Below, in pieces: positions 12,050 to 22,135 of a stretch of 64,000 nucleotides of DNA. Both the position numbers and the translations under genes were made by a program. The stretch is from contig CP021423.1 in assembly GCA_002162075.1 (NCBI GenBank), positions 2,914,001-2,978,000 of the forward strand, given 5' to 3'. The notes below the pieces were generated by a model. It had not been told where the DNA came from, searched no databases, and saw only the letters and a list, made by a program, of their open reading frames with translations. The stretch comes from Armatimonadetes bacterium Uphvl-Ar1 (GTDB taxonomy: Bacteria > Armatimonadota > Fimbriimonadia > Fimbriimonadales > Fimbriimonadaceae). Every line of letters begins with the position of its first letter. Positions within the stretch are counted from its first letter, which is position 1.

Positions 12050-13305
12050 ATGAGCAACCGCCAATTTAGCCGAGACCCTGAAGACTTTGACCAATATCGT
12101 CGGCGATTGATATTGAAGTCTAAGCCAGTGGGGAAAGAGGAGCGGGCGGAGTGGTTTCAGAGTTTTTGCGACCTGATTGAAAAGGCGTTTCCGGCACAGG
12201 AGAGTCGGGTGAATCGTCCGGGGGTGGCGCACAGGTTGTTTGCGGCGGAGATTGCGATTCCCCGGATGAAGCCAGAGACCCTAGTCGGGTTTGCCAATGA
12301 GTTTGAGCAGCTCTTTTTGGAGGCAATGCCGGTAACGATGGAAGGGTGCCGAACCCATTTGTATCAGGATCGGCTGGACGTCATTTGGGAGGCGGTGATT
12401 GATTTGGGCGATGCGTACGTCACGCTTGGGGTGAAGTTGCGGAACGCGGATTTTGGGATGAAGGAGTTCAACAATGACGACCGGAACGACTTCAAGCGGG
12501 AGAGGGGGACTTTCGAGAAAGATCGGGATGATCGGCCACGAAAGTTTGATCGTGGTGGCGGCGGAGGGGGCGGATTCCGAGGTGATCGCGATGGCGGGGA
12601 CCGTGGGGGCTATCGGGGAGGCGGGGATCGAGGAGGTTCTGGCGGCGGCTATCGGGGTGATCGGGACGGAGGTGATCGAGGGGGCTATCGGGGAGGCGGT
12701 GATCGCGGTGGATCTGGTGGTGGATATCGGGGTGATCGAGATGGCGGGGATCGTGGCGGATATCAAGGAGGCAGTGATCGCGGTGGATCAGGCGGAGGTT
12801 ATCGGGGCGGAGATCGAGAAGGGGATATCGAGGCGGCGGCGACCGTGACAACCGGGGCGGCGGAGGTGGATATCGAGGTGGTGGTGGCGGCTATCGCGGG
12901 GGTGGGGACGATCGTGGAGGATCGGGTGGATACCGTGGCGGAGACCGGGACAATCGAGGTGGCGGCGGAGGTTATCGTGGAGGAGGAGACGACCGCGGAG
13001 GATCGGGTGGGTACCGTGGCGGTGGTGGCGATCGGGACAATCGTGGCGGTGGAGGAGGATATCGAGGCGGCGGAGATCGAGACAATCGAGGTGGCGGCGG
13101 AGGTTATCGTGGAGGAGGAGACGACCGTGGAGGATCGGGGGGATACCGTGGAGGCGGTGGAGATCGGGATAATCGAGGTGGTGGTGGCGGTTTCCGGGGT
13201 GGCTCCGGTGGTGGTGGATTCAAACGCGGCGGCGGTGGCGGCGGTGGATTCAAGGGCGGCGGGGGCGGGTTCAAAAAAGGCGGCCCACCGAAACGGCGTG
13301 ACTAA
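12050..13305 (+). CDS. RGG/YRGG-repeat putative RNA-binding protein, frameshifted at 12821-12824
   Basis: No named family recognised. Residues 1-145 form an ordered, charged N-terminal domain, and the rest is low-complexity RGG/GGYRGG/DRGG repeat ending in GGFKKGGPPKRRD. The repeat frame breaks at the G4 run 12821-12824, after which the other frame reads Ala/Val/Glu-rich nonsense. One extra G restores uninterrupted Gly-Arg repeats to a TAA at 13303-13305 and 418 residues in total. RGG boxes bind RNA and promote condensates in other proteins; such a long one is unusual for a bacterium. A strong Shine-Dalgarno precedes ATG 12050. Function is not known. Confidence 0.75.
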
Positions 13306-18293: not shown

Positions 18294-19346
18294 GTGGGGA
18301 TTGTGGAAGGGCAGCTCTTTGATGAAGTGTATGCGGAGATGGCGGCTCGGTCGGGGAAGTTCGACCGGGTTTGGTATGTCGGGGTGAAGACGACGGGGAT
18401 TTTTTGCCGGATGATTTGTCCAGCGCGAACACCGCTGGCTAAGAATGTTGAGTTTTTCGGTTCAATTCAGGAGTGTCTTCATGCGGGATTTCGGCCTTGT
18501 AAGCGGTGCAAACCGATGAGTTTGCGAGATGAAGGGCCGGTGTGGGTGGGTGAGTTGGTGAAACGAGTTCAGGTGTCTCAGGTGAAACTTCGCGATGGAG
18601 ATTTACGAAAGATGGATTTGGAGCCGGCGACGGTGCGACGTCATTTTGAGCGGTTTTTTGGGATGTCGTTCCACGCTTACCAGCGGGCTTGGCGGATGGG
18701 CCAGGCGATTGGGAGTTTGCGGTCGGGCGGTGATTCGGTTGATGCGGCGATGGCGGCGGGATATGCCAGCGAGAGTGGATTCCGGGAGGCATTTGAGCGA
18801 ATCGTGGGGGTGAATGTTCGGGATTCTGATTCTGCGCGGTTGGCCTATGCTCGGTGGATCGAGACGCCGATTGGGGGGATGGTTGCGGTGGGATCGGACG
18901 ATGGACTCGGGATTTTGGAGTTTGTGGATCGGCGGATGCTGGAGACGGAGTTGCGGGACTACGAGCGATTGACTCAGAGGAAGATTGTGCCCGGGGATCA
19001 TGCGGTATTGGATCAAATTGATGCGGAATTGGGCGAGTATTTTCGAGGTGAGCGGAGAGAATTTGGGGTTCGATTGGATTTACGGGGAACGGAGTTTCAG
19101 CGGCGTGTTTGGCGGGAGTTGGTTATGATTCCTTGGGGCGAGGTGCGGAGTTACGGAGGGCAAGCGAAGCGGTTGGGGAATTTGGGTGCGGTTCGGGCGG
19201 TGGGCCGGGCGAACGGGATGAACCGGATTGCGATTGTTGTGCCGTGTCACCGGGTGGTGGGGGCGGATGGGAGTTTGACGGGATATGGGGGCGGTTTGTG
19301 GCGAAAGAAATGGTTGCTGGAATTGGAGGGGATTAACACAAATTGA
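18294..19346 (+). CDS. ada: Ada: methylphosphotriester/O6-methylguanine-DNA methyltransferase and regulator
   Basis: Suicidal DNA repair protein of 350 residues that also activates the adaptive response to alkylation. The N-terminal zinc site has four Cys in the Ada spacing (Cys38, Cys42, Cys69, Cys72), one of which accepts methyl from phosphotriesters. An AraC-type helix-turn-helix follows (around residues 100-170, [15 protein letters not shown]). The C-terminal MGMT domain has the acceptor Cys318 in VVPCHRVVG. The start is uncertain: GTG 18294 is used because the conserved Ada domain needs the N-terminal residues, and the first ATG (18339) would leave little room. Confidence 0.93.
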
Positions 19347-19364
19347 GAAATTTTTGTAAATGTA

Positions 19365-19394
19365 TTGACAATAAAACAGAGATTTTGCGAGAAT
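19365..19394 (+). promoter_or_regulatory. Putative promoter TTGACA-18-GAGAAT
   Basis: A perfect -35 TTGACA at 19365-19370 and a weak -10 GAGAAT at 19389-19394. The ATG at 19401 follows six bases after the -10, the same spacing as in other putative leaderless genes here. Confidence 0.5.
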
Positions 19395-19400
19395 TTGAAA

Positions 19401-21044
19401 ATGAGATGCTCTCTCTCTCTCTCTCTCTCTCTGTTAGCACTTTCCGCGTTGAGTCATGCAGGTCAGTACGTTTTGAATGCCACGCATGACGGTGTAACCA
19501 ATCCGAGTGGAGGTGTGGGCACAACAAACAATGGTAGTGTCGGATATGGTTGGAGTTCGGGAAGCTATGGCTCGACTCAAACGATTGATGCTCAACCAGC
19601 CGCCGCTACTTGTTCTGGCGAAATCAAATGGGTTTTTGTTTGGCAGAGAGATATGATTCCGGGAACGAATACTCCTGATCTGGGCGACAATCCGCCGCCG
19701 AGTGTTGTTGTCGAGGAGTTTTGCGAAGCAAAGTATGCTTGGTCTCCATTTGAGGGTTCAGGCTCTGGGAGTTGCGATAATGGCTTGGGATTTGCGGTTG
19801 TAGAAACTCAAGAGTTTAATGTGCGGCGCGGTATTGCTTCGGGAGTGCGGTACCGATTACAGGGAGGCGGGGAAACGGTAGAGATTTCACTGAGTCCGTC
19901 GGCTCAGGCGAGCGCCGACTTTGGTTCCGTTTCGGCTTCAGTGAAATACACCTGCACGATCTATATCCCAGAAGTATCCCTTGAGGGACTGACAAATTTT
20001 AGTGGAGCATTAAAGGTGCTTGCTGGTCAAGAAGTGATCAGTAGCTTTGTACTTAAGCCCTCTTTTTCGCAATATCCAATGGTTGATCGGGGTCTGAGGG
20101 TGAAAAGTAAGCGCTGGTTTGAACCGGATGTAGTCAAGCCGTTTAAAGATTTTGTTCCTGCGCGAGCAACTAATCAGTATCAAGCATTGACCCGGGCTGA
20201 CCACTTGGCTGACCAGTTGAAGTTCTTCACTGCGGCGAAAGGAACATTTGAGGTTCCTTGCATGGCGACACTTGAGTTTCCAGAAGGTGCACGGGTGATC
20301 GGCGATGGAATTCCTGTGACTCCGGATTTGCCGTTGGTGTTTGCGAAATCAAGGCAAGCAGAGTCGAAAAAATTTGATGTTGAAACAACGGGGCGCGTAG
20401 GAAATGTCGTACTTTATACGAATCAGGTTGAAGGATTTGGGCCGCTCGGAGTAGGAGATGCTGGCAATTTGGGCTCGCGTTGGGCTACAAAGTTTAAGCC
20501 ATTCGATTCTTTGACTGATTTCGCTTTGGACGGAATCGCAAGTTTTGCGCAAATCGCAAACTTTAGTAGGAGCTTGCAGAGGTCACTTGCCGCCGGGGCT
20601 CCTTCTGGAACACCGACAAACTTCAGTCTGGCAGCAGGAAATGGAAAATCATGGCTTGATGTTCAATATCCTTACCCGTTTAGTGAGGGTGTTTCGACGA
20701 GCGGCTTTTTTCCGATTATTGAAGAAGTAAAGGGTTCGGATAATCCGCTCCATATCTTGTCTCTGAACAACCTGCAGTGGACTAACCGGTGGGAAACTTC
20801 TGAAGCGCGCGATTCATTTGAAACTTACACAATGTATCGTCCACCGTCGAAGGATGGGCTACGAACCATGTTGGTTCCGTATTCTATTCACAATTGGTAT
20901 TGGAGTGGGGAGGCGTCAAGAAATGCGACGGGAGGATGGCAGGTTAAAGGAGAAGGAAAGATGTCATCTGTAGAGCAAACGGACAATCACCCAACGTGGG
21001 TCAGAGTCATGCCGTATGGAGGGTTTAATTTTTCTGGATTTTGA
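19401..21044 (+). CDS. Secreted protein of unknown function with a CT-repeat-encoded signal peptide
   Basis: 547 residues from ATG 19401. The signal peptide core is encoded by twelve CT dinucleotides (CSLSLSLSLLALSALSHAG), so any gain or loss of a unit not divisible by three would shift the frame. The mature part is Gly/Ser/Thr-rich with few repeats and contains a Cys-bearing segment (ATCSGEIKW, EEFCEAKY, GSCDNGLGF, KYTCTIYIP). No known family recognised. It is AT-richer than its neighbours. The next gene, also secreted and unknown, starts 32 bases later, so they form a pair. Confidence 0.7.
   Translation: MRCSLSLSLSLLALSALSHAGQYVLNATHDGVTNPSGGVGTTNNGSVGYGWSSGSYGSTQTIDAQPAAATCSGEIKWVFVWQRDMIPGTNTPDLGDNPPPSVVVEEFCEAKYAWSPFEGSGSGSCDNGLGFAVVETQEFNVRRGIASGVRYRLQGGGETVEISLSPSAQASADFGSVSASVKYTCTIYIPEVSLEGLTNFSGALKVLAGQEVISSFVLKPSFSQYPMVDRGLRVKSKRWFEPDVVKPFKDFVPARATNQYQALTRADHLADQLKFFTAAKGTFEVPCMATLEFPEGARVIGDGIPVTPDLPLVFAKSRQAESKKFDVETTGRVGNVVLYTNQVEGFGPLGVGDAGNLGSRWATKFKPFDSLTDFALDGIASFAQIANFSRSLQRSLAAGAPSGTPTNFSLAAGNGKSWLDVQYPYPFSEGVSTSGFFPIIEEVKGSDNPLHILSLNNLQWTNRWETSEARDSFETYTMYRPPSKDGLRTMLVPYSIHNWYWSGEASRNATGGWQVKGEGKMSSVEQTDNHPTWVRVMPYGGFNFSGF
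19409..19432 (+). repeat. (CT)12 dinucleotide repeat inside a signal-peptide coding region
   Basis: Twelve perfect CT units just after the start codon, encoding alternating Leu and Ser. Dinucleotide tracts of this length are prone to slipped-strand mispairing. Confidence 0.95.
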
Positions 21045-21076
21045 CAATTATTGAGAGGAAGAATAGGTAAACGAAA

Positions 21077-22060
21077 ATGACAATCATCAACAAAACACAT
21101 ATCGCAACTGGCATGCTTGCCTTGCTGCTGATTCCTACTATGGCGTTCGCACAACTGACTCCGGCTGAGAGAGTATCTCTAGCCTCTCAGCGGGCATTTG
21201 AGTTTACAGAACTAGTTGATAAAAGTCGTTATGTGCAAGCTCAACAAAAACTTAGTGAACTTTACGATGCTTGGCGAGATATCAATAGCAGTCCGGGCAC
21301 CGACGTTTATGTTAAAGCCGCCAAGATGTACCATGCGCTGGGGGACAGTGCGGCAGAGAAGCGGGCATACGAGATGTCACTTTATTGGCAAGGCGGCATC
21401 ATGTCACCAAATTCGGAGTTCATCTTTGGAGGGAATGTGGAGCATTACAGTGCCTATATCCGTTATCTCTTGAGGAATGACCGAGATGAGGATGCGGTTC
21501 GGCTTTATTATGCGATGCTTAGGCAGAAGAGCGGCATGGAGCGAACCGTGATGTTTCCGATACACGATTTTGAAAAAGAGAAGCTTCCTATCCTGGTGGT
21601 TTTTGCTTCAGATCCTCACGCAGAATCCTGGTCGTATACGCGGCCCAAGCTCGAGTTACTTCTTAAAATTTTTGAGGTTGAGCGAGGAACGTGGGAAGAG
21701 AAGCTAGCCGTAATGGCCGAGGCGCACGACTTGGTTCCGAGTTGGTATTTGCCCGTTGCTCACTTGGCGTTCACGGTGCCTTACAAGGTTAATGAGGTGC
21801 GATACCAGCAGGCGTTGGCGTTAGCACCGGGGGAGAAGGAACGGACATGGATTGTGAATTACCGGCGGTACCACACGACCCAGCCGATTGATCGGAGGGA
21901 AGATCCTGAGTTTCCAGTGATGGTGGACGGTCATGCGGAGCGGCGGAAGATTCCTTTGTTGGAGGCGGAGCGATTGGCATTGATTCCGATTTATCGTCGG
22001 CTTTCGGCGGGTTTCCAACAAGGTAAATTTCACGAGTTTTGGGAAGAGCCGGAGAACTGA
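21077..22060 (+). CDS. Secreted helical protein of unknown function
   Basis: 327 residues. A clear signal peptide (MLALLLIPTMAFAQ) is followed by a mostly helical, TPR-like protein (for example YVKAAKMYHALGDSAAEKRAYEMSLYWQGG and NDRDEDAVRLYYAMLRQ). No family recognised. It lies 32 bases after the CT-repeat gene and is probably co-expressed. The last third uses the G-rich codons typical of plus-strand genes here, while the first two thirds are AT-richer. Confidence 0.65.
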   Translation: MTIINKTHIATGMLALLLIPTMAFAQLTPAERVSLASQRAFEFTELVDKSRYVQAQQKLSELYDAWRDINSSPGTDVYVKAAKMYHALGDSAAEKRAYEMSLYWQGGIMSPNSEFIFGGNVEHYSAYIRYLLRNDRDEDAVRLYYAMLRQKSGMERTVMFPIHDFEKEKLPILVVFASDPHAESWSYTRPKLELLLKIFEVERGTWEEKLAVMAEAHDLVPSWYLPVAHLAFTVPYKVNEVRYQQALALAPGEKERTWIVNYRRYHTTQPIDRREDPEFPVMVDGHAERRKIPLLEAERLALIPIYRRLSAGFQQGKFHEFWEEPEN

Positions 22061-22135
22061 TTCGGAAAATCTTCGTCAGAAGGCTTAAGTAGAAACCCCA
22101 GATTTGTAGAGCGGGTTGTTGAGGATTGGCATGGA

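Follow-up and report, generated by a model that had tools for sequence, protein, structure and literature searches.

A candidate phase-variable CT repeat in the signal-peptide code of a secreted-protein gene of Armatimonadetes bacterium Uphvl-Ar1

A 64,000 nt stretch of the Armatimonadetes bacterium Uphvl-Ar1 genome (CP021423.1, positions 2,914,001 to 2,978,000; hereafter the window) carries a gene for a secreted protein of 547 amino acids (aa), here called gene A, with twelve perfect CT units in its signal-peptide code. This (CT)12 tract is very probably the switch of a simple-sequence-repeat (SSR) contingency locus, i.e., a site of phase variation by slippage. A preliminary description, made from the sequence alone, had proposed a candidate phase-variable locus here, and the proposal is supported by repeats found at the orthologues of gene A, by OFF frames lying one unit from ON, and by the concentration of such tracts at the 5′ ends of secreted genes. 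The features at the start of gene A are as follows.

19401..21044, + strand: gene A, 547-aa secreted protein (MRCSLSLSLSLLALSALSHA-GQYVLN...), an open reading frame (ORF) with a predicted signal peptide
19401..19460, + strand: signal-peptide code of gene A, MRCSLSLSLSLLALSALSHA, with predicted cleavage after SHA, read from the sequence
19409..19432, + strand: perfect (CT)12 tract, the candidate switch, read from the sequence
19406..19408, + strand: second ATG, in a different frame, in frame with gene A at n = 7, 10, 13 and 16 (frame simulation)
19365..19394, + strand: predicted promoter-like sequence TTGACA-18-GAGAAT, with TG ahead of the second box (consensus scan, 10/12 matches)

The (CT)12 tract and its reading frames

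The tract begins eight bases past the first base of the gene A start codon (19401) and runs from codon 3 onward, occupying codons 4–11 of the 20-residue signal peptide. That twelve perfect CT units code for the hydrophobic core of this peptide, as first described, was confirmed at 19409-19432 within the ORF 19401-21044. A long perfect repeat in the 5′ code, with a unit that is not a multiple of three, is a property of SSR contingency loci. CT runs of 2, 3, 4 and 12 units numbered 612, 32, 2 and 1, respectively, on both strands of 124 kb of the same genome, and in the whole 2,985,450-bp single-contig genome this is the sole CT or AG tract that reaches 8 units. Counting end-anchored CT tracts from 5 units upward adds just one more in this genome.

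It is most improbable that the repeat is a protein-level feature only, in which a Leu-Ser core happens to use alternating CTC and TCT codons and the tract is stable. A Leu-Ser stretch could plausibly form the core of a signal peptide, and with n = 12 the ORF is open; however, given the codon usage of the genome, the probability of drawing four TCT and three CTC codons for those Ser and Leu residues is about 6e-6, CT runs of intermediate length are lacking from the 124 kb, and the signal peptides of the orthologues are ordinary, without Leu-Ser runs. Because the codon choice is improbable and the CT run length far beyond chance, the repeat is a feature of the DNA and not merely of a Leu-Ser-rich peptide.

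Reading frames were simulated for n = 7–17 CT units; here and below, ON and OFF calls rest on the start codon judged likeliest. From the first ATG (ATG1, at 19401), full-length gene A is read at n = 9, 12 and 15 (545, 547 and 549 aa), and a three-unit change keeps the frame, as had been suggested. The second ATG gives products of 544 aa at n = 10 and 546 aa at n = 13, with a signal peptide (MLSLSLS...) that has no Arg. At n = 8, 11, 14 and 17 neither ATG opens gene A, and n = 11 yields peptides of 9–28 aa only. As in SSR contingency loci, one unit more or less takes the gene from a full-length to a truncated frame or back, although n = 13 is open solely from the second ATG. The earlier statement that the frame would shift when one or two units are gained or lost has to be qualified: at n = 13 or 10 gene A is open from the second ATG, and both starts are lost only at n = 11 or 14. 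Since the second ATG comes into frame on adding one unit, the switch may be three-state rather than binary.

How far the second ATG is used would depend on the promoter. The −10-like box (GAGAAT) ends 6 nt upstream of ATG1, and there is no clear Shine-Dalgarno sequence. If the predicted promoter is real, transcription would begin at ATG1 or immediately beside it, and there would be little use of the second ATG. Both features would also suit a regulatory pyrimidine-rich start, in which the CU run that opens a leaderless mRNA influences ribosome or S1 binding and the length of the run tunes expression, with no frame switching. However, most of the related tracts described below are arranged to break the frame or the promoter spacing, not to tune, and such an effect is compatible with switching rather than exclusive of it; as the explanation of the tract it has very little likelihood.

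In the proposed switch, slipped-strand mispairing at replication would add or remove whole CT units in (CT)12. Whenever n is a multiple of three (n = 0 mod 3), translation from the first ATG would read through and the gene A protein would be exported. At n = 2 mod 3 neither ATG would be in frame, leaving only short peptides of about 9–28 aa. The second ATG alone would be in frame with n = 1 mod 3, giving an A protein whose signal peptide lacks its positive charge, and this state would probably be weak or off if the mRNA is leaderless. Cells with the gene ON and cells with it OFF would then coexist in one clone, a form of bet-hedging like that of the CT-repeat adhesin genes of Helicobacter pylori. 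The protein so varied would be a secreted beta-sheet protein that is probably associated with the surface, and the variation may be selected by phage, predator or surface interactions.

Gene A orthologues and the A-B cassette

Homologues of gene A were found in 10 of the 60 related genomes searched, and several carry repeats of their own. The A orthologues of genomes G029 and G034, which belong to different genera, both have a C10 tract and both are OFF, one base from ON. In G029 the tract lies in the signal peptide and the frame is broken (44 aa), with n = 11 giving 604 aa, while in G034 it lies at the signal-peptide end (broken, 40 aa), with n = 11 giving 559 aa; a decayed paralogue of the G034 gene has C10 at the identical spot. 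In G019, a C12 tract immediately follows TTGACATA in the promoter spacer upstream of A. The signal-peptide code in G004 contains three copies of the octamer GGGTTGTC, and is open from a GTG and broken from a nearby ATG. Tracts occur in three of eight A homologues, where 0.004 would be expected in 300 bp (P = 3.6e-6, rising to 4e-4 with a fivefold background), a count that leaves out the window and the G004 octamer and takes G034 once. These different repeats at orthologue 5′ ends support the view of A as a contingency gene, and are the strongest evidence for it. G019 also has an array (L201, G019:C16:51001-68000) in which A-B is present in at least one full copy and one partial copy; its three TTGACATA-C promoters are nearly identical and have C tracts of 10, 12 and 11.

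The gene downstream of A, and the segment in which both lie, are listed here.

21077..22060, + strand: gene B, 327-aa partner protein with a predicted signal peptide (ORF)
19334..22121, no strand: segment of 2.79 kb containing promoter, tract, gene A and gene B, without counterpart in the closest congener, G006 (genome comparison)

G006 has 56 bp in place of window 19334-22121, with flanks that are 87% and 90% identical, and gene A is missing from five of seven congeners. The promoter-tract-A-B cassette is an accessory insertion. A gene B homologue is found directly downstream of A in G004, G019, G025, G029 and G002, most of these with a signal peptide, and B would presumably be co-expressed with A. 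The A-B insertion is bordered on the left by an Ada-type fusion gene directly upstream (window 18294-19346), with metal-binding, AraC-like helix-turn-helix and O6-methylguanine methyltransferase domains.

No Pfam or NCBIfam family was matched by gene A. With its predicted signal peptide, and with gene B and its signal peptide next to it, this agrees with the original account of A as a secreted, unknown protein paired with a second secreted gene. The AlphaFold model of A is all-beta and of moderate confidence (13 sequences, pLDDT 73). A Foldseek search with it gave no match at E ≤ 0.001, and in VIA-align the Z scores were at most 5.4, not above background, so that no fold stands out; the top rows, at background level, were FN3/Ig-like domains and the C-termini of streptococcal antigen I/II.

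The tract could be a product of neutral slippage, a chance expansion in the tolerant Leu-Ser signal peptide of an accessory and partly decaying family, perhaps mutable but not a selected switch. The cassette is accessory, several homologues are fragmentary or broken away from any repeat, and whichever frame is used, (CT)n encodes Leu-Ser, a composition that signal peptides tolerate. This is nevertheless unlikely: independent, different repeats recur at the 5′ ends of the A orthologues, long tracts concentrate at secreted genes, and G tracts sit between promoter boxes.

Similar tracts in the genome, class and phylum

The Uphvl-Ar1 genome has only two G tracts of at least 10; both are G12, and both lie at 5′ ends of secreted genes. 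One of them (L115, G000:C1, 839496-839507) follows the signal peptide MSNFLRLCTLLSALLFALVASAQ and is OFF (42 aa), with n = 13 giving 614 aa and n = 10 giving 613 aa. The other (L116, G000:C1, 2397488-2397499) makes up most of a 17-nt TTGACA-GGTAAT spacer just upstream of a gene for a 157-aa secreted protein, which is followed by one for a 332-aa secreted protein. From their sequence and position, L115 and L116 are candidates for a second and third switch of this genome. A G9 tract after TTGACAATTCCGA, upstream of a gene for a 210-aa signal-peptide-like protein (L205, G000:C1:1716545-1716566), is a possible fourth and weaker case.

CT/AG tracts of at least 9 units were sought in 113 genomes of the class and 291 of the phylum, and 21 distinct ones were found. 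A crude automatic rule, used alike on tracts and controls, places twelve of them at the 5′ ends of signal-peptide-like genes (P = 3e-6, either strand); of 8736 control sites, 7.0% per strand satisfied it. Seven tracts in the phylum lie in N-terminal code, two ON and five OFF. The ON tracts are those of the window (G000) and of G008 (MGRKLALSLSLSLLASLARAQ, in a protein unrelated to A), and the OFF tracts are in G150 (two), G167 (two) and G247 (one), where one unit more or less gives an ORF of 191–520 aa in each case. Among the tract-bearing secreted proteins, no sequence relation was detected. Loci L058, L071, L059, L072 and L070 are secreted genes without a family, from other families of the phylum, each with an N-terminal CT/AG tract and one unit from open.

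AG tracts were also found in G014 (L025, n = 10) and G089 (L028, n = 18), two genera, at homologous junctions between the Methylase_S halves of a type I specificity subunit, where the third frame would fuse the two halves. The sequence suggests a type I specificity gene subject to phase variation, and it resembles the known phase-variable hsdS systems in having such tracts at the junctions, a likeness that applies to these relatives only and not to the window locus.

In the class, TTGAC-N(0-10)-G9 gave 57 matches, compared with 8 for the reversed pattern (overlapping matches counted). The ATG of a signal-peptide-like ORF lies within 70 nt downstream at 19 of 29 distinct TTGAC-N-G9+ sites, compared with 52 of 923 TTGAC controls (6%). 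The corresponding C9 pattern (TTGAC-N-C9) had 24 matches, similar to its reversed pattern and not clearly above control. Poly-G tracts at contig ends (e.g., in G060 and G007) look artefactual and were left out. At several loci of the lineage the start codon is only about 6–8 nt after the −10-like box.

It is likely that phase-variable secreted proteins form a sizeable but unrecognised set in this lineage, and that family A acquired its switch repeatedly by different repeats. The set would comprise signal peptides with dinucleotide or G/C tracts, G/C tracts in the promoter spacers of leaderless or near-leaderless genes, and tracts at hsdS junctions.

Several points weigh against the (CT)12 tract as a contingency switch. 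The CT tract itself is absent from all A orthologues and is not conserved. A change of tract length in living cells, i.e., hypermutability, would be expected, but the comparison spans one genome per species; indirect signs of it are the paralogous C10, C11 and C12 promoters of G019 and the hsdS tracts of 10 and 18 units. MutS and MutL are present in the Uphvl-Ar1 genome, and slippage may therefore be slower than in H. pylori. In addition, assemblies may give wrong lengths for homopolymers or dinucleotide repeats, and some OFF calls could arise in this way; this would weaken individual calls but leave the presence and position of the tracts unaffected. Absence of mismatch repair was considered as a cause of the repeat, and rejected on account of the two Mut genes.

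Comparison with known switches

In H. pylori, CT dinucleotide repeats at the 5′ ends of oipA/hopH, hopZ and sabA switch these genes, the frame setting ON or OFF, and the oipA repeat is stated to lie inside the signal-peptide code (PMC3960876, PMC10564699). These genes bear out the remark in the preliminary description that dinucleotide tracts switch surface genes in other bacteria. Gene A resembles them in carrying a CT repeat in its signal-peptide code, but fits no known outer-membrane adhesin family. It differs further in its lineage, in the presence of mismatch repair genes, in a possible third state via the second ATG, and in that its switching is predicted. Since gene A has no Pfam or NCBIfam family, it would work like the Hop-type genes of H. 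pylori without being one of them; the mechanism would match the one already known from oipA, hopZ and sabA, in a different protein family and lineage.

Frame switching in Neisseria opa occurs through a CTCTT repeat in the code for the signal-peptide hydrophobic core. Both are pyrimidine repeats in a signal-peptide core, but the opa unit is a pentanucleotide and that of gene A a dinucleotide, and the proteins are unrelated. Neisseria porA undergoes phase variation by a homopolymer in its promoter spacer, and G/C tracts are likewise found between TTGACA-like and −10-like boxes at relatives of A and at many secreted genes of the lineage. This is not, however, the mechanism of the window locus, and the short distance from the −10-like box to the start codon at several of the loci is a further difference.

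SSR contingency loci have been studied mainly in a few host-associated pathogens, and no report of phase variation in Armatimonadetes/Armatimonadota was found in the open-access papers searched. If the interpretation of gene A and its relatives is true, convergent switches on one secreted family, together with switches at many secreted genes of the lineage, would make this bet-hedging strategy more widespread, and such switches would mark secreted proteins under fluctuating selection from phages, predators or neighbours.

Elsewhere in the window (12581-13269), degenerate tandem repeats rich in Gly, Arg and Asp were observed, with units of 75, 39, 81 and 132 bp.
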